Origin: Trissonchulus latispiculum
Lineage: Eukaryota; Nematoda; Enoplea; Enoplida; Ironidae
Direction of reading: 5' to 3'
Length of the DNA: 64,000 bases
Assembly: GCA_030248195.1 (NCBI GenBank)
Contig: JASAND010023977.1
Coordinates: 1-64,000 of the forward strand
Made by a program: the position numbers and the translations under genes. Of this stretch, positions 16,227-42,081 are shown one piece after another; position 1 is the stretch's first letter, and every line of letters begins with the position of its first letter. The notes beneath the pieces were generated by a model. That model saw only the letters and a list, made by a program, of their open reading frames with translations, was not told the origin of the DNA and made no database searches.

Positions 16227-16231
16227 GAAAG
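16227..16231. repeat. target-site duplication GAAAG, left copy
   Basis: GAAAG directly precedes the 5' LTR and recurs at 21142-21146 directly after the 3' LTR. Five bases is typical for Ty3/Gypsy and related integrases. Confidence 0.9.
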
Positions 16232-16380
16232 TGTAGTGTCTGAGCCATGTAATGACATTCACGTGTTAATCTTTAATGACAATCTGCTGTATTGACTAAT
16301 ATGCAAATTAACTTTGTTGCTATTTAACCCGTTGCTTTTGTGCAATAAATCAGTCGGCTTGTTTCCTCTTGAATACTACA
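16232..16380 (+). repeat. 5' LTR (149 bp)
   Basis: Begins TGTAGTGTC and ends GAATACTACA, so the ends form a 6-bp inverted repeat TGTAGT/ACTACA. Contains an octamer ATGCAAAT at 16301-16308, a TATTTAA box near 16321 and AATAAA at 16344-16349. Very short for a Gypsy LTR. Confidence 0.95.
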
Positions 16381-16381
16381 T

Positions 16382-16398
16382 TGGCGCACTGGGTAGCG
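16382..16398 (+). other. primer-binding-site position of the Gypsy element
   Basis: TGGCGCACTGGGTAGCG begins one base after the LTR, where a tRNA 3' end should anneal (TGG complements CCA). I do not recognise the matching tRNA species. Confidence 0.6.
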
Positions 16399-16968
16399 CT
16401 TTGATCACCTGCAGATCAAGCGAAAGCCGACGAACCGTCTATAGCTTTGACCGCTTCCAGGTCAAAGCAGGAGAAGATTGCTGATCAGCGTTGGCCGCTT
16501 CAAGGCTTTGACGCAAGAAGAACTTTTCTGCAGTTCTGACCGCTTCCAGGTCAGAACAAGAAGAAGACGTGCTCATTGCTTTGACCGCTTCCTGGTCAAA
16601 GCAAACGAAGAGCAACCGATTGGCTTTGACCGTTTCCAGGTCAAAGCAGAAGCAGACGAGTCAACAGCTTTGACTGCTTTGCAGGTCAAGCAGAAGAATA
16701 CACAGCAGCTTAGACCGTCCCCAGGTCAAAGCAGAAGAAGACGATCGGGTCAGCGCACTCCGCTGCCAGACCAAACCACAAGAAGACGATCGGGTCAGCG
16801 CACTCCGCTGCCAGGTCTGGGCTCAAAACAGAAGCCGGACAGATCCGCTTTGGCCACATCCAGGTCAAGGACGCAGAATCCATTGGGTTTGACCGCAGCC
16901 AGGTCAAACCAAGAACTAGACGGAGGCCGTTCCAAGGCTGAAACTTCCTATCGGGCCGTCTCCAGGCC
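16397..16968 (+). repeat. tandem array of covarying hairpins in the retrotransposon leader
   Basis: A hairpin with a 9-bp stem and 7-base loop (loop type GCTTCCA) recurs about every 41-45 bases. Perfect copies are at 16444-16468, 16578-16602 and 16623-16647 (stem GCTTTGACC/GGTCAAAGC), 16533-16557 (GTTCTGACC/GGTCAGAAC) and 16886-16910 (GGTTTGACC/GGTCAAACC). Weaker copies are at 16397-16422, 16667-16691, 16708-16732 (one mismatch), 16848-16870 (with G-U pairs) and 16954-16968 (4-bp stem). A related duplicated unit (AGACGATCGGGTCAGCG...) lies at about 16738-16823. Base changes in one arm are matched in the other. Spacers are purine-rich (AGAAGAAGAC). The array lies between the primer site and the gag ATG, where packaging, dimerisation or translation signals sit in retroelements. 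Confidence 0.9.
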
Positions 16969-17013
16969 AAGTCAAATCAGCAGCCACAACAGGCGAAGCC
17001 AGGGAGCAGTTCC

Positions 17014-20000
17014 ATGGACCATCTGCCGCCTCCACCGGTCTTCCTTTCCCAACCGGGGGAACCACCAGTCCCTTGGAAAGAATGGATCAGGGCTTTCAAT
17101 ACATATGTGGAAGCCACCACAGGGGCCCACGGGGAACAACCAGGTGCGGTGGTTCCTGATCGTAGGCGTGTTGCCATCCTCTTGCACTGCCTTGGTGCAG
17201 AGGGGCAGCGCATCTACTATGCCATACACCCCGAGGAGGAAGCCGAGGTCACATACCAGGTGGTGGTCGACAGGTTGGCCAGCCAGTTTGGTCCCCGAGA
17301 GAACGTGGTAACCGCCAGGGTCCGTTTCCGGGAATGCTGTCAGGGTTCCAGGAAGGTGGACGAGTGGGTAGCTGAATTGCGGCGCCTGGTGGTCCCCTGT
17401 AAATACAGGGACCTAGAAGAAGAACTGATCCGGGACCAGATTGTGGAGAAGACTGCCAGCCCGAGAACACGGGAAAGGCTACTGATGGAAGGAGATCTCA
17501 CTTTGGAGAAGGCGATATCCGTGGCCCGCCAGGTACAGCAGGCCAGTTTGGATTCCAAGGCGATCACCAGTGGTCAGCCAACTCCTGCAGTGAATATGGC
17601 TGCAACTTCCAGGGCATCCCAGTGGAAGAAGAAACCAAATCAGCCAGCATCGGCCTGTTCTCGGTGTGGCAAGTCAGGACATCACGGCAACGATCCGAAG
17701 TGTCCAGCTACAGGCAAGAAGTGCAACGCCTGTGGAAAGCTGGGCCATTTCTCGAAGGTTTGCAGGTCTTCCGCCAGCAAGCCATCAGGGAAGAAGCCTC
17801 CGCCGAAGAGCAGTTCCAAGCCATCGACTGCTTCACCAGTGGAGATTCTGAAAACCGAAGTCAACAGATGTGCTGCCTCCGGCGATCTCATCGTGCCAAA
17901 CTTTGAGGTCGAAATCGCTGGAGACAGACGATCGATCCCAATGGTGGTGGACACGGGATGTACGAGATCAATCATCCCTTTGACAGTGGTGAAGACGGAA
18001 TTTCCAGAAGCAGACGTAAAGCCATGCTTGCTATCCGCGAATGGATACGGGCGCAATTCCCTGCCAGTAGCAGGAACCGTGGACGCTGTGGTCCGTTTCA
18101 AGGACCGTACAGCGAAAATCAGCTTGATAGTGGTCGACGTCAAGGATAGGCCATTATTTGGATTGGATCTGTTCAGGGCGCTCAGAATACAGCTGAACGC
18201 CAGCAAGCCTGTTCAGGTGAATGCCATCAGTGGAAAGACGGACATCCAAGCCAGGTTCCCGAGCCTGTTCAAAGAACAGCTTGGACCGTTGAAGGGATTC
18301 GTACACAGAATCCGACTGAAGGAGGGGACGAAGCCGATTGCCACGAAACTTCGACGACCTCCACTTGCATTGGTGGACTCAGCGATAGCCGAACTGAAGA
18401 AGATGGAATCCGCCGGCATCATTGAAAAGATAGAAGCAGCCGAGTGGGTTCATCCCATGGTAGTAGTACCAAAGAAAAATGGAGAAGTCAGGGTTTGCTG
18501 CGACATGCGGAACCTGAACCAGTCAGTGGTTGCCGATCAATATCCGCTGCCAACAAACGAAGAAATCCTGTCGGAAGTTGGGCAAGCGAAGATCTTCAGC
18601 AAAGTGGATCTACGCAAAGCCTATTTCCAGTTGCCGTTGGCAGAGGAGAGCCGTCAGCTCACGGCTTTCCTTACTCCAATTGGCTTATTCCAGTACTGCA
18701 GGCTGCCGATGGGATACAAAAGCTCCGCCAGCATATTCCAGAAGGCGATGGAGCAAATTCTATCAGGAATTCCAGGAGTGGTTCCATTGATTGATGACAT
18801 CCTCATCTATGGGCACTCACGCGAAGTCCATGATGAACGATTGTTCAGCGTGCTGAAGCGACTGGACGAAGTGGGCGCCACTCTGGAACCGAGGAAGATG
18901 GATCTTCATCAAAGGAAGATTGATTTTTGTGGCCACACTCTATCAGATCAGGGTGTTCAGCCACTAAATGATAATGTGGAAGCCATCTCTCGGATGCCTA
19001 AGCCGAAGACCATCAAGGAACTGAAGTCGTTTTTGGGAGCCGCCAATTACTACCTCAGATTCCTGCCGCATTTCTCTACCAGAGTAGAACCTCTGAGAAA
19101 TGCCGAAAGAAGTGATTCAACTCACCTCAACTGGAATGCTGAGATGGATGCTGCCTATCAGGACATCATCAAGGCTCTGTGTAGTAAACCCGTTTTGGGT
19201 TTCTACAGAAAGGGCTGCCAGACATATGTAACGACGGACGCCTCAACTGTGGGAGTTGGAGGTGCCCTCTCTCAAATCCAGGATGGACAAGAAGTTGTCA
19301 TCGCATATGCCTCCAGGAGTTTGTCTCCCACCGAACGACGATATTCGGTGACCGAGCTAGAAGCCTATGCAGTCGTATGGGCGTGCGAAAAATGGAAGTA
19401 CCTCCTATGGGGAAAGCCATTCATCATCCGCACCGATCAACAAGCTTTGGTGTCCTTGTTCAACACACCCATTGGTGCCAAAGGCCATAAGCCTCTACGG
19501 ATCGGAAGATGGTATCTCCGCCTCGCCGAGTTCGACTACAAGGTCGAATATAAGCCTGGAAAGGAGAATGCCTTGGCAGATATCCTCTCTAGATTGCCAC
19601 TGCCGCCGAAGAAATCAGAAGATATCCCAGAAGCTTGGTGTGATGCTTACGTGTCAGCTGTCGCCACAGTAACAGCACTCACGCCGGAGGAGTTGAAGAA
19701 TGAAACTGCAGCCGATCCAGTGTTGGGACGACTGATGTCAACGTTCCGACGCCAGTGGACCAAAGAGGAGCAAGAAGATCCAGAACTGAAGGCTTATTTT
19801 CCAATCCGGAACGATTTGACCTCGATGAACGGTGGAATCTTCAAGGGACCTGCACTGGTGGTTCCAGGTTCTTTGAGGGAGCGAGTTCTTTCGCTCGCCC
19901 ACGAAGGCCATCCAGGCGTGGTCAGAACCAAGCAGCGTCTGAGGGATGCCTATTGGTGGCCTCACATGCAAAACGATGCCGAAGAATGGGTGAAGCGATG

Positions 20001-20958
20001 CGGGCCTTGCCAGCTCGCCGACAAATCAGCCAAACCATTGCCGTCAGGGGTCCAGCCAACGGAAGTTCCGAAGGATCCATGGACTCGCCTAGCTTTGGAC
20101 ATCGCCGGTCCATTTGCCACAGCTCCACATCACCAGCGATGCCTATTGGTCCTCCAGGATTATTCATCAAAATGGCCGGAAGTTGGATGCCGATCCAGCT
20201 ATTCAACGAAGGACGTGATCGATTTCTTGGAGCAGGTCTTCGCCAGACACGGGTATCCGTCCGAAATCGTTACGGACAATGGTCCTCAATTCATCTCCGA
20301 TGAATTCGAGGCTTACCTCAAGGGAAGGAACATTACCCATCTGAAGACCGCTGTCTACAACCCAATGGCAAATGGGATGGTGGAACGGTACAACCGGGTG
20401 CTCAAGGAAGGGCTGCAGATTGGGTATCTGGAAGGCACATCATGGGAAGTCTCGATCAGGAAACTGCTTTTTTCCTATCGAAGTACTCCCCACTCGATCA
20501 CAGGGAAATCCCCCTTCGAGGCCCTACACGGAGGGAGGAAGATGAGGACTATGCTAACCCCACCGGACCTCAGGAGATTGACAAGGTCTGGTACGAATGC
20601 TGGAGGCGGACCACTTTTCCCAGGAGATTGGGTCCGCCATAAGCTGTCCTGGGTGCCTAAGGGTAAACCATCTTGGTCCAAGCCACTACGGATCAGGAAA
20701 CAGCGAGGACAATTCACCTTTGAGCTCGAAAATGGCCAAGTTTGGAATTCTCGTAAGCTGGCCAGGGCTCGCTACAACGACAACGACGAATCGGCGGAAG
20801 GTCCAATCTTCCCGGTGCCAGAAACCGCGGATGTCGAACAGCCGGCACCGCCGGAAGAAAATCCTCCTCCTCCGCATCCTCAACAACTTGGAGAAGAAAA
20901 TCAGCGACCGCAGAGGACGAGAAGAGTTCCTGATTATTTCCAAGCAGGGTTCACTTAA
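17014..20958 (+). CDS. gag-pol: Gag-Pol polyprotein of Ty3/Gypsy element, intact
   Basis: 1314 codons in one frame with no gag-pol frameshift. Residues 1-200 form a Gag capsid-like region. Zinc knuckles lie at about 215-231 (CSRCGKSGHHGNDPKC) and 236-249 (CNACGKLGHFSKVC). The aspartic protease site is VVDTGCTRSIIP at about 311. RT has VCCDMRNLN, KVDLRKAYFQLP and catalytic LIDDILIYG at about 592; the usual Y of YxDD is L. RNase H has VTTDAS at about 742 and RTDQQALVSL. Integrase has the HHCC finger HEGH...CGPC at about 962-1000, and D, D and E at DIAGPF (about 1028), TDNGPQF (about 1087) and GMVERYN (about 1123). The C-terminus has no recognisable chromodomain. It makes the particle, the DNA copy and the insertion. 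The stop is 34 bases before the 3' LTR. Confidence 0.97.
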   Translation: MDHLPPPPVFLSQPGEPPVPWKEWIRAFNTYVEATTGAHGEQPGAVVPDRRRVAILLHCLGAEGQRIYYAIHPEEEAEVTYQVVVDRLASQFGPRENVVTARVRFRECCQGSRKVDEWVAELRRLVVPCKYRDLEEELIRDQIVEKTASPRTRERLLMEGDLTLEKAISVARQVQQASLDSKAITSGQPTPAVNMAATSRASQWKKKPNQPASACSRCGKSGHHGNDPKCPATGKKCNACGKLGHFSKVCRSSASKPSGKKPPPKSSSKPSTASPVEILKTEVNRCAASGDLIVPNFEVEIAGDRRSIPMVVDTGCTRSIIPLTVVKTEFPEADVKPCLLSANGYGRNSLPVAGTVDAVVRFKDRTAKISLIVVDVKDRPLFGLDLFRALRIQLNASKPVQVNAISGKTDIQARFPSLFKEQLGPLKGFVHRIRLKEGTKPIATKLRRPPLALVDSAIAELKKMESAGIIEKIEAAEWVHPMVVVPKKNGEVRVCCDMRNLNQSVVADQYPLPTNEEILSEVGQAKIFSKVDLRKAYFQLPLAEESRQLTAFLTPIGLFQYCRLPMGYKSSASIFQKAMEQILSGIPGVVPLIDDILIYGHSREVHDERLFSVLKRLDEVGATLEPRKMDLHQRKIDFCGHTLSDQGVQPLNDNVEAISRMPKPKTIKELKSFLGAANYYLRFLPHFSTRVEPLRNAERSDSTHLNWNAEMDAAYQDIIKALCSKPVLGFYRKGCQTYVTTDASTVGVGGALSQIQDGQEVVIAYASRSLSPTERRYSVTELEAYAVVWACEKWKYLLWGKPFIIRTDQQALVSLFNTPIGAKGHKPLRIGRWYLRLAEFDYKVEYKPGKENALADILSRLPLPPKKSEDIPEAWCDAYVSAVATVTALTPEELKNETAADPVLGRLMSTFRRQWTKEEQEDPELKAYFPIRNDLTSMNGGIFKGPALVVPGSLRERVLSLAHEGHPGVVRTKQRLRDAYWWPHMQNDAEEWVKRCGPCQLADKSAKPLPSGVQPTEVPKDPWTRLALDIAGPFATAPHHQRCLLVLQDYSSKWPEVGCRSSYSTKDVIDFLEQVFARHGYPSEIVTDNGPQFISDEFEAYLKGRNITHLKTAVYNPMANGMVERYNRVLKEGLQIGYLEGTSWEVSIRKLLFSYRSTPHSITGKSPFEALHGGRKMRTMLTPPDLRRLTRSGTNAGGGPLFPGDWVRHKLSWVPKGKPSWSKPLRIRKQRGQFTFELENGQVWNSRKLARARYNDNDESAEGPIFPVPETADVEQPAPPEENPPPPHPQQLGEENQRPQRTRRVPDYFQAGFT

Positions 20959-20976
20959 CCAGGGTTTCCAACCCTC

Positions 20977-20992
20977 GGGAGAAGAAGGGTAA
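20977..20992 (+). other. polypurine tract before the 3' LTR
   Basis: GGGAGAAGAAGGGTAA lies directly against the TG of the 3' LTR; such purine tracts prime plus-strand DNA synthesis. Confidence 0.85.
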
Positions 20993-21141
20993 TGTAGTGT
21001 CTGAGCCATGTAATGACATTCACGTGTTAATCTTTAATGACAATCTGCTGTATTGACTAATATGCAAATTAACTTTGTTGCTATTTAACCCGTTGCTTTT
21101 GTGCAATAAATCAGTCGGCTTGTTTCCTCTTGAATACTACA
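20993..21141 (+). repeat. 3' LTR (149 bp)
   Basis: Same length and, on reading, same sequence as the 5' LTR at 16232-16380. Followed by the GAAAG target duplication at 21142-21146. Confidence 0.95.
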
Positions 21142-21146
21142 GAAAG

Positions 21147-27923: not shown

Positions 27924-29591
27924 CAGAGTTGGAAGTGGACAAGAATTTCAGTGTCCACGTCCACGCTTGTCCACACAGGTCTTGTCCACGTCCGCCCGCA
28001 CATGTCCACATGTCCACGCTCTAAAATTTTGTCCACCAGTGCCCACGTTTTAAAACCGATGTTCTTTGTTGATTTTTTAAAATTTCACCTTTGCTTTTTA
28101 GTATGTTTTAACAGGTCATAAAATGGTGTATTATTAGGGGGGTTATGAGGTGGTGGAGGTGGACCCCTTTTTGAGGTGGTATGTGGACCTCTATGTGTGG
28201 TATGTGGACCCTCTTTTGAGGTTGTGGCCCTCTGTGGACCCCTGTGGACCCTACCATTGGGGTTGTGGACCCCTGTGGACCCATGTCCGGAACCATAGTC
28301 GACCCAAGGTCAAATTTTAAACTTGGCCATTTTCGCCAGGAAAACTTTATCCAGTGGTAATTTTGAGTAGCTGAATCTAGAAAAATTACCTTAGTTTTGA
28401 ACTAAGAGCTTCCTAAAGCTTTCTGGACTGAGCCAGTTAGTTACATTCACTATTTTTACTTACTTTTGAGTCGCCGAATCTAAAAATGACCTTAGTTTTA
28501 AACTAAGATCTTCTTAACGCTTTCTGGACTGAGCCAGTTAGTTACATTCACTATTTTTTACTTACTTTTGAGTCGCCGAATCTAAATGACCTTAGTTTTA
28601 AACTAAGATCTTCTTAACGCTTTCTGGACTGAGCCAGTTAGTTACATTCACTATTTGTACTTACTACATATAAACCATTAAAGTTTTGACTTCGTCGCAC
28701 TAATGCGAACAACTGCGCATAATCTACAAATTAGCAAACTTAGATGGTCTAAATTCACATTTTGGGAGATGGTCTAAAAAATTTAGGTGTTTTCTAGGGC
28801 GCTGACCACAAATCTGGAATTCTTTTTCGGGTTAATGCTTAATTGTAAGCTTATTTTGAGCTAATAAAAAGCTTAATTAAGAAGGATTTCATATTCGCGC
28901 TCAGCGCCCCAGAGAAACCGCTCTTTGAATTTTCAAGCAAAATCGGGGACAAAAAATTAATAAGCGCATGATTCCTATCGTCTTGGTACTTTTTGGTTGA
29001 TTTATCAATTTGATGCAATTGAGTTATGACTAGGACAATAATAAGAGCAGCGGTGTGCATATTGAATTTGGAGTGAAGATAAGAATGTTGTTACAAACTG
29101 TCGGCACGATATATCGCATCTAACGCTTGAAGGGGATGGCTGCAAAATTTTGCAGTCATCCTGCAAAAATCGAATCATTTCAAATCATCTTTGCAGCCAT
29201 CGGATGGCCGCGTTCCGGGTGGAGCTATCACGGTGCCTCCATTACGCTGAAAGTGATGGACGTACTGATAGCCTTGGAGAACACCACGGATAATTGCTAA
29301 TGCAGTTAATCAGTGTCAGCACTCCCCTACCCGAGACAAAATTGGAAAACGTGCTGGCACTACCCCTAACCGGAATACCAACTGGGGTGAGGTTGCCAAA
29401 AAACCGTCGGCACAAAAATAAGTTTGAAAAATTATATATGAAATTTCAAAATATTTTTATAAAAAAGCAGGGCAAGATTTTGTCCACATTTGTCCACGTT
29501 TGTCCACGTGGACAAACTTCCTGTCCATGTCCACGTGGACATCCGGGTACCCGCGGGCGGTGCGGGTACCCGCGTCCACCTTCCAACTCTG
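27924..29591. mobile_element. non-autonomous hAT-like transposon, 1668 bp
   Basis: Ends are CAGAGTTGGAAGTGGAC (left) and the inverse of CAGAGTTGGAAGGTGGAC (right), one base apart. They are flanked by an 8-bp direct repeat ATTCTGGG. CAGAG-type ends and 8-bp duplications are hallmarks of the hAT superfamily. Both subterminal regions are crowded with GTCCAC/GTGGAC hexamers (27930-28040, 28150-28300, 29485-29580), the kind of repeated site hAT transposases bind. No transposase ORF is present, so movement would depend on another copy. Confidence 0.85.
28361..28665. repeat. three tandem copies of a ~102-bp unit inside the hAT-like element
   Basis: Units start at 28361, 28464 and 28566 with TTTTGAGT[AC]GC and contain CTTTCTGGACTGAGCCAG. 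Copies 2 and 3 are nearly identical, copy 1 more diverged. Each contains a small palindrome CTTAGTTTTAAACTAAG. Confidence 0.9.
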
Positions 29592-40206: not shown

Positions 40207-42081
40207 CGTGTGCGTTCATTACCGAGAATTGCTTAATCGAGAATTGCTTTACCGAGAAAATGAGTAGCCGTTAATTTGAAATTTTGCTTTACCGAGAAAA
40301 ATCAAATGTACTCATTTCGCTTAACCGAGAATTGCTTTATCGAGAATTGCTCAAACGAGAAATGTACATTGTCAACAGTGGACTAAATGATGAATGGCTG
40401 AATATAATGTTATTTATATATAACTTTAGCAACTTAGTAAGTGTGCTTCTGTTTACTGACGTTTATATGTTTCATCAGTAAGATCTTAAACAAATTATAC
40501 CTACGATTTTACCTCATTTTTCTAATTAATCAAATTCAAACTCGTACATAACAATAGTGCAAAAATTAGATTTTAACTTGAATAAATAATGTAATTATTT
40601 GCCGGGTTCTGTATGCTAAACTATACATGTATAATAAACAGAAAGTTACTCAATTTATGACGCTTAATATAATTAAAATAAAATACATTACTTATTTAGC
40701 TAGTTAATAATTTTAACTCAATCCCGTTAAAAGAGGTCAATGGAGGTAAAGTCAAGCATGAGGGTAGTTAAACCAGTCAAACTCTACTTTACACTGCTCT
40801 CTTCTTTCGCGAAAAGACCCTCCACGATTTAGTGTTAGTTTGTATCGATTCCATATGATTCCACTTAACAATTAATCTAATAATCCGCTGTTTTTTGTTT
40901 TTAAATTTGCTATGCAAAAACATTAAATATAAAAATTCTAAGTCTTGAAATTTTTAAGACACTTAAGACTTCTTAAACTTCTTAAAACTTACAGACCAGA
41001 TTTATATACGATTTGCGCTGACAATGAATCTGAAATCCAATTTTCAATTTTAACATCAGTATTATTCAATATCAAAAATTCTTAGCTTAGCCAGTAACCA
41101 AGAATTTTTATGCCATTGGCCCCTGTGCTACCAATTTATGGTAGGCAAGTGTTTAACTGAGAATGCACAGAACAATAATTTTGGTTCAAAATCAAGGACA
41201 AGACTTCTGGTTCGCCTTTGTCTGTCGTTAGGTTTTATGTTTAAAACTTAAAGTTTTTAAATCTAGGGGCCTATTTCTTAAAGATTAAAATGGTCGGATT
41301 AAACGATTAAAAATTAGCCGGATTAAAATGTTAATGGCTGTTTCTTTAATGCAGGATTAATCGGATAAAAATTAACTCGGATTAAACGAGTTGACTTTAA
41401 TTTGTTTAATCAGCGATTAAAGAAACTGAGGTTAAGGACAGCACAAAATAATGGAATAATTCTTGGCGTCGGAAGGGCCAGTACCGAGATCGGGCTGAAA
41501 GCAGGTTTCGTTTTTCTATTCCACCCGTGCTTACATGCCTGTCTGGCCGTAAATTAGATTCAGCAATCTGTTTATGTAATTATATATTTAGCTTAATTTA
41601 ACATAGTTAAATAGGTTATTTAAGTATTAACTTAGAATTTACCTGGTTACGGTATTTTATTTTCTATTTGTATAACAGGAACAAAACTTAGCCGCATGCT
41701 ATTCCAGATTATTTTAGAAAAATTGCTTCAGGCAACATAACATTGTGAGAAAATTGATTTGTATGTTGGCAGGCCACACAAATTTATTCATGTTATCATA
41801 TTCTTCAGGTTCCAGGATTCTTGCATGCTTCGTGTTCCCACGTATTAGATATTAGATATTTTCTCGTTTAAGCAATTCTCGGTAAAGCAAATTCTCAGTT
41901 AAGCAAATTCTCGCTTTTGCAATTCTCGCTAAAGCAATTCTCGGTAAAGCAATTCTCGGTTAAGCAATTCTCGGTAAAGCAAATTCTCAGTTAAGCAAAT
42001 TCTCGCTTTTGCAATTCTCGCTTAAGCAATTCTCGGTAAAGCAATTCTCGGTTAAGCAATTCTCGGTAATGAATGTAAGCC
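40207..42081. mobile_element. foldback-type element with iterated inverted termini, 1.9 kb
   Basis: The left terminus (about 40215-40363) repeats CGAGAATTGCTT[TA]A-like units. The right terminus (about 41861-42074) carries the inverse, TTAAGCAATTCTCGGTAAAGC, in about 13 units of 14-17 bp with a higher-order repeat near 90 bp. The outermost shared string is TTCATTACCGAGAATTGC. GTATCATT (8 bp) flanks both ends (40199-40206, 42082-42089). Inverted termini built from short tandem subrepeats are typical of Foldback/Galileo-like elements; an 8-bp duplication would fit hAT or P. The interior has no transposase. Confidence 0.75.

Follow-up and report, generated by a model that had tools for sequence, protein, structure and literature searches.

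The 64,000-nucleotide stretch of DNA analysed here (the window; positions 1 to 64,000 of contig JASAND010023977.1) comes from the nematode Trissonchulus latispiculum and contains a complete Ty3/Gypsy retrotransposon at 16232–21141, whose untranslated leader carries an array of short hairpins between the putative primer-binding site and gag. Across the element's own family (family A) and three sister families (B, C and D) the stems are replaced in pairs while a near-identical loop is kept, and a further close family (E) has no array. We tentatively read the array as a series of repeated RNA sites at which one protein docks, the strongest candidate being the Gag of the element itself, acting in packaging. 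Judged from sequence, the array looks like the invention of one clade.

Five perfect hairpins with stems of 9–11 bp and 7-base loops lie on the forward strand of the leader, at 16444–16468 (loop GCTTCCA), 16533–16557 (GTTCTGACC/GGTCAGAAC), 16576–16604 (loop GCTTCCT), 16623–16647 (loop GTTTCCA) and 16886–16910 (GGTTTGACC/GGTCAAACC, loop GCAGCCA). The original prediction, made from the letters of the window, had described at least five perfect hairpins and several weaker ones between the primer site and gag. The coordinates confirm this placement, the stem variants it quoted are exact, and about six weaker units accompany the five perfect hairpins, far above what shuffled leaders yield: 10 stems of at least 8 bp are counted, each hairpin being scored at two loop sizes, against a mean of 0.10 and a maximum of 3 in 500 dinucleotide shuffles. 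Its description of 9-bp stems and 7-base loops fits the perfect hairpins except at 16576–16604, where the stem has 11 bp. The weaker units, on the same strand, comprise unit 0 at 16398–16421 (GCTTTGATC/GATCAA-GC, with a 3′ arm one base short), hairpins with 8 of 9 pairs at 16708–16732 (loop GTCCCCA) and 16847–16871 (two G·U pairs), a short-stem unit at 16949–16973 (loop GTCTCCA, inner GGCC/GGCC) and a degenerate unit at 16667–16691 that is identified from the alignment of copies. A looser caller yields a degenerate unit at 16488–16512 (loop GCTTCAA) and a short-stem unit at 16920–16944 (loop GTTCCAA, inner GGCC/GGCT), and degenerate units are also contained in a recent 45-bp tandem duplication at 16727–16814. 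By this caller the window leader holds 11 units, which start 46, 44, 45, 45, 45, 85, 139, 39, 34 and 29 bases apart; the uniform 41–45-base spacing first reported is replaced by a range of 29–139.

A search of the genome (734 Mb in 21732 contigs) returns 25 matches to the leader in 21 loci, and the other genomic copies, on which the original prediction had been staked beforehand, keep the hairpins. Partial copies (L014, L017, L018, L020 and L021) are left out of the leader alignment, and counts over 13 copies also omit the decayed copies L013, L016 and L019. In seven units, chosen for good pairing in the window copy, which may bias the count slightly, the stems changed 37 times over 1589 cells, where the spacer rates predict 111.9; loops show 48 changes in 615 cells against 46.3 expected. 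Changes shared between copies, and therefore inherited, affect 4 of the 126 columns in stems, 10 of the 49 in loops and 56 of the 427 elsewhere (9, 11 and 88, respectively, over 16 copies with the decayed ones included). Seven copies (L002, L003, L007, L008 and L010–L012) differ from the window by 10–15% at fourfold sites of gag and by 0–6% in the stems, the first four of them by 11–15% and 0–4%. The gag gene is under purifying selection, with 8, 9 and 35 differences per 400 sites between L002 and the window at codon positions 1, 2 and 3. Within the family, 17 double-change cells are seen against 4.3 in shuffles, and a tree-based null of 1000 simulations gives P 0.002 for paired cells and 0.028 for double-change cells. 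Taken alone, family A shows constraint on the stems and just modest compensation, weak to moderate in strength.

The pattern TTTGACC-N7-GGTCAAA occurs at 61 places in the genome against 21 for the reversed control, and among 50 places listed, 38 are in family-A contigs and 12 are singles elsewhere; among viral contigs, the hairpin pattern turned up a single hairpin, in L022, and the 350 bases around it hold no array. L020 was considered as an array-bearing non-autonomous copy and set aside: its 3′ long terminal repeat (LTR) is incomplete and it shows no clear target duplication. A chimeric unit in L009 (812–836) combines the 5′ arm of one hairpin with the 3′ arm of the next and is a case of unit loss by exchange within the array. 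Insertions of ~0.9 kb in L004 (2173–3116) and ~0.8 kb in L010 (925–1681) break gag and leader.

Relatives of the element were found through gag (153 matches; 150 of 1495 candidates scored; 30 loci returned). Ten of the returned loci are family-A places, and leaders were examined at the other 20, to which the upstream regions of 20 more distant relatives were added (only 328 bases for L065 and 930 for L069). All 40 loci were scored by one rule, the loop motif flanked by at least 4 Watson–Crick pairs, up to 1500–1600 bases upstream of gag. Families B, C and D have the array at every one of their 14 loci, with 4–14 scored units each, and the 13 family-A leaders score 2–6 units by the same rule of loop and four pairs. 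No unit scores at any of the 6 family-E loci or the 20 distant loci, two of which offer less than 1 kb.

The arrays of B, C and D have different repeat periods and largely different stems from that of family A, around a near-identical loop: GYNNCCA in A, B and D, GNNCCA in C. Family B (ten loci, L029–L033, L042, L043, L046, L050 and L052; gag 62–82% identical to the window) repeats hairpins such as TTTCAAGCC-gcctcca-GGCTTGAAA, GTTGGAGTC-gcttcca-GACTCCGTG and CAGAGCT-gcttcca-AGCTCTG with a 56-nt period. Family C (L034–L036; gag 67–68%) carries GACC-gttcca-GGTC, with a 6-base loop and the inner stem of family A, in composite 96-nt repeats. In family D, represented by L045 only (gag 59%), CAGCC-gctacca-GGCTG recurs with a 64-nt period in 14.4 copies. 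In a further family-B locus, L083, the array runs directly into mid-gag, an internal deletion at the array edge.

This comparison inverts one part of the original prediction, which had both stem arms changing together and loops drifting freely. Among family-A units taken by position, loop positions 1, 5 and 6 are nearly fixed (G1 in 81, C5 in 85 and C6 in 84 of 88) and positions 2–4 vary, even as the loop as a whole changes at the spacer rate. Across families it is the loop that is kept and the stems that drift in pairs. Because a loop-based search fixes the loop by construction, loop conservation is drawn from these positional units of family A and from the recurrence of the same motif on hairpins with different stems in B and D.

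Covariation across families is strong. To avoid choosing for pairing, units were picked by the 7-base loop alone, which gave 57 distinct units from 13 copies of A, 38 from 9 copies of B (with L052 omitted) and 7 from D; family C lacks the 7-base motif and stands outside this count. Stems of at least 4 bp flank 26 of 57, 22 of 38 and 5 of 7 of these units, respectively, against 0–0.6% in shuffled leaders. Counted outward from the loop, the fifth and sixth pairs take all four forms, T-A, A-T, G-C and C-G, and the third and fourth pairs are mainly G-C and A-T. Of 612 cells, 137 show Watson–Crick double changes. Shuffling the 3′ arms inside each family leaves 76.9, and a tree null with independently evolving columns gives 39.2 (maximum 99 in 500); neither the paired cells nor the double changes observed were reached in any of the 500 simulations. 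The number of pair types gives a weaker signal (19 against 13.2, P 0.006), and family B alone shows 38 double-change cells against 10.2 (maximum 36). These figures come from custom scripts rather than R-scape and, as units share descent and duplication, are strong without being exact probabilities. Stem changes are thus compensated above chance, as predicted, and the covariation points to conserved RNA secondary structure in the stems. The prediction had opposed selection to simple tandem duplication; selection on pairing stands, and tandem duplication also occurs, so that the two act together on the array.

A gag tree was built from 26 rows of 43 matched loci, leaving out rows with stops or fewer than 191 aligned residues; eight sister-family loci outside the tree were assigned by gag nucleotides alone (92–99% to their own family). 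Families A, B, C and D form one clade (96/95) with E as its sister (99/94 for the whole), and all outgroups fall outside. The simplest history on this tree would have the array gained a single time, once the clade had separated from E, and then repeatedly re-amplified with different units; the array probably arose once. The tree keeps long branches (L045 and several outgroups), and were L045 misplaced, a loss in E and a late gain would be equally likely. Family E (L038–L041, L044 and the broken L049; gag 60–65% identical to the window) has a leader of ~100 nt that is purine-rich, with GAAGAAGA runs and no hairpins of the A–D kind, and open frames of 1278, 995 and 748 codons in some copies. The stretches L085 and L086, from the 3′ end of this family, contain no hairpin of at least 6 bp with a 6–7-base loop. 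The purine-rich spacer of the arrays may be their older part, given this leader. In L049, palindromes of the CCGGCCGG type abound in a sequence that interrupts gag (~1060–1540). The gag alignment reveals no Gag domain gained together with the array; the array is clade-specific rather than general, since E lacks it.

In the reading that we tentatively favour, the hairpins would fold in the genomic RNA, each presenting a loop of fixed shape; the stem would merely hold the loop, and the protein would read the loop. Many copies would provide avidity and tolerance of mutation. Renewal of the array by template switching of reverse transcriptase and by unequal exchange would account for the family-specific periods. 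A constant loop on replaced stems is the pattern expected of a hairpin whose stem presents the loop to a protein. Retroviral packaging signals sit between the primer site and gag, and tandem hairpin arrays serve in laboratory RNA tagging. The array here occupies that same place, as Gag-read packaging signals do, and this position, together with the two zinc-knuckle motifs of Gag, would make Gag the most plausible reader and packaging or particle assembly the most plausible outcome. More speculatively, the array could be a natural tandem aptamer array invented by this clade, in which Gag would bind many loop-coded hairpins at once and thereby select and condense its genome; each family would have re-amplified its own version, with new stems and periods and the same loop.

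The working form is probably RNA rather than DNA. In units with at least 5 of 7 Watson–Crick pairs, G·U cells outnumber A·C cells (24 against 6, P 0.0014), an excess in favour of sense-RNA pairing that is supportive, not decisive. Replacement of the stem with pairing kept, around an asymmetric loop, argues more strongly against a site in duplex DNA. That dyads in the leader serve a host protein as an enhancer or insulator is therefore improbable, even though stem sequence is well kept within family A and the accessible text on Drosophila gypsy puts 12 Su(Hw) sites at the corresponding location, in its leader (PMC2374998). In a DNA dimer site the arms should be conserved and the middle free to vary, and an insulator or enhancer should keep the sequence of its sites; the stems differ between A, B and D, and pairing and loop persist. 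Nuclear-receptor half-sites (AGGTCA) were a tempting candidate in family A and were rejected, as in the sister families the same loop sits on other stems. Folding of the whole leader pairs six window units with probability of at least 0.98, and its RNA folds 4.6 standard deviations below shuffles (only 20 shuffles).

A translational role, with hairpins that pace scanning ribosomes or bind a host RNA-binding protein and so hold the RNA back from translation or change its loading, is less probable, though it draws on real features of the leader. The array lies directly before gag, and a conserved loop suits any sequence-specific RNA-binding protein. The window leader contains no ATG against 3.8 expected (P 0.009), and none occurs in the family-D leader or in 6 of the 9 tested B and C leaders; the absence from the window leader and D fits a scanned leader. 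Among the 13 family-A copies, seven leaders have no ATG, five have one and L015 has five. The deficit is nevertheless modest (P ~0.01 in the window copy, and not under 0.05 in all copies), the B and C leaders expect just 0.9–3.2 ATGs, and Rfam recognises no internal-entry element, its single match being sub-threshold with no gathering score reached. A coding repeat was also tried and rejected: the TTG-start frame over the array shifts between copies, the longest open frame differs by copy, and the units have no third-position excess, as read from the substitution profile. The openness of this frame is likely due to composition.

Paired changes might also arise without selection, if tandem amplification were combined with template-switch correction of imperfect inverted repeats. 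Quasi-palindrome mutations do extend arm identity in such repeats, according to the portion of the literature consulted (PMC3820800), and units here clearly expand and contract, as in the chimeric unit of L009. This process predicts that stems change at about the spacer rate, in pairs, but they change three times less, nor would it preserve a loop motif between families whose repeat units differ; already disfavoured, it is an unlikely account of the array. Least probable of all is RNA dimerisation, in which arms would pair zipper-like with those of a second genome. Arms are complementary between different units of the same leader, and Ty1 RNA is described, in the text available, as dimeric with palindromic sequences (PMC4974528). 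The loop motif, however, is not self-complementary and so offers no kissing handle, and dimerisation leaves the conservation of the loop unexplained.

Several observations weigh against an RNA array read by Gag. The complementary strand folds as well as the leader RNA (z −8.0), so folding energy does not pick the strand. Whole-leader folding assigns a probability of 0.04 to the 16708 unit and low pairing probabilities to several units of the divergent copy L015. The excess of G·U over A·C disappears at a looser cut (36 against 27), where it is reversed in family B (10 against 22), and it is not significant among orthologous departures within family A (17 against 12). In the same family, pairs with any double change number 4 against 2.8, a value matched by 108 of 500 shuffles and carrying a tree-null P of 0.25. 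The spacers of L002 and L003 differ from the window by just 4–5%, against 11–14% at gag fourfold sites, so that in these two copies the entire leader is of younger age than gag or under tighter constraint, and the spacers are not a clean neutral yardstick; recombination between copies and spacer constraint are two readings of this closeness. Family E, finally, keeps the Gag layout (58% identity over the aligned piece, with both zinc-knuckle motifs) and has no array. As some of its copies have open frames, packaging in this lineage seems not to need the array, which leaves room for a host protein or a role in translation.

The element itself has the domain order and termini of Ty3/Gypsy. The LTRs are 149 bp long (TGTAGT...ACTACA) and identical, at 16232–16380 and 20993–21141, and are flanked by the 5-bp target-site duplication GAAAG at 16227–16231 and 21142–21146, read from the flanks; the predicted youth of the element is supported. 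The putative primer-binding site (TGGCGCACTGGG...; 16382–16399) is placed by its position and TGG start, its extent being assumed, and 19 of 20 sister-family loci likewise have TGGCGC upstream of gag. Between LTR and gag, the 633-nt untranslated leader spans 16381–17013. A single gag-pol frame of 1314 aa (17014–20958) encodes in order gag with a zinc knuckle, reverse transcriptase, RNase H and integrase on the forward strand and is followed by a polypurine tract, read from the sequence, at 20977–20992. The Gag of the window element scores as a zinc knuckle, and two zinc-knuckle motifs are visible in the alignment of the clade. Its named relatives are proteins of a tunicate (Styela clava), a hake (Merluccius polli), a barnacle (Amphibalanus) and an eel; comparison of a reverse transcriptase piece with viral contigs gave no confirmed relative. 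The window LTR contains CACGTG at 16260–16265 and the octamer ATGCAAAT at 16301–16308, a pair also present in the LTRs of L030, L034 and L083 (families B and C) and perhaps a shared LTR promoter signature. Outside the element, the window holds three 100-bp repeats (28361–28665) and a 15-bp tandem array of 13.5 copies (41861–42069).

The four sister families amount to a natural experiment: near-identical loops sit on different stems, leaders score from several to 14 hairpins, and one close family lacks them altogether. This makes directly testable, with leader RNA alone, what picks out a retrotransposon RNA, and the answer would show how a repeated RNA code arises and persists. Retroviral and Ty1/Ty3 packaging leaders carry a few distinct stem–loops. 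They share with this leader a structured RNA between primer site and gag and an expected Gag reader, whereas here one hairpin type is repeated ~4–14 times with its loop kept. MS2-type arrays of phage coat-protein hairpins, in which tandem hairpins with a fixed loop are read by one protein, are engineered and have a known partner; by analogy, the window array resembles such tags in its tandem hairpins with a fixed loop.

Among published systems, the Gag-binding RNA sites of Ty1 and Ty3 are described, in the accessible text, as not precisely defined (PMC4974528). The Steamer-like element MchSLE1 is similar in layout, with short LTRs (185 bp), a length of 4758 bp and one gag-pol frame, and the available part of its description mentions no leader array (PMC11046912). 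Inverted repeats near the primer site of bivalve TRIM and GalEa elements could likewise form a hairpin; what that report's accessible text describes is a single long-loop hairpin, proposed as a primer site, and no array (PMC6934838). The original prediction knew of no retrotransposon leader with such an array, and a literature search over titles and the openings of abstracts, with most subscription papers beyond its reach, found no printed precedent. In the sources accessible, the nearest printed relatives are the Sirevirus palindromic motifs and the Drosophila gypsy insulator. Sireviruses, which are plant Ty1/copia LTR elements, also carry a palindromic motif in many copies outside coding sequence, with a CGG-CCG core, in the LTRs and upstream of env, and with no conserved asymmetric loop reported in the text at hand (PMC2829016); the present array lies in the leader, and its five perfect hairpins have no CGG...CCG dyad. 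The gypsy insulator, as far as its description could be consulted, likewise gathers some dozen repeated sites in the 5′ leader of a Gypsy element, but these are DNA sites whose sequence is kept (PMC2374998), whereas in the T. latispiculum array the stem sequence is replaced and the pairing is kept.
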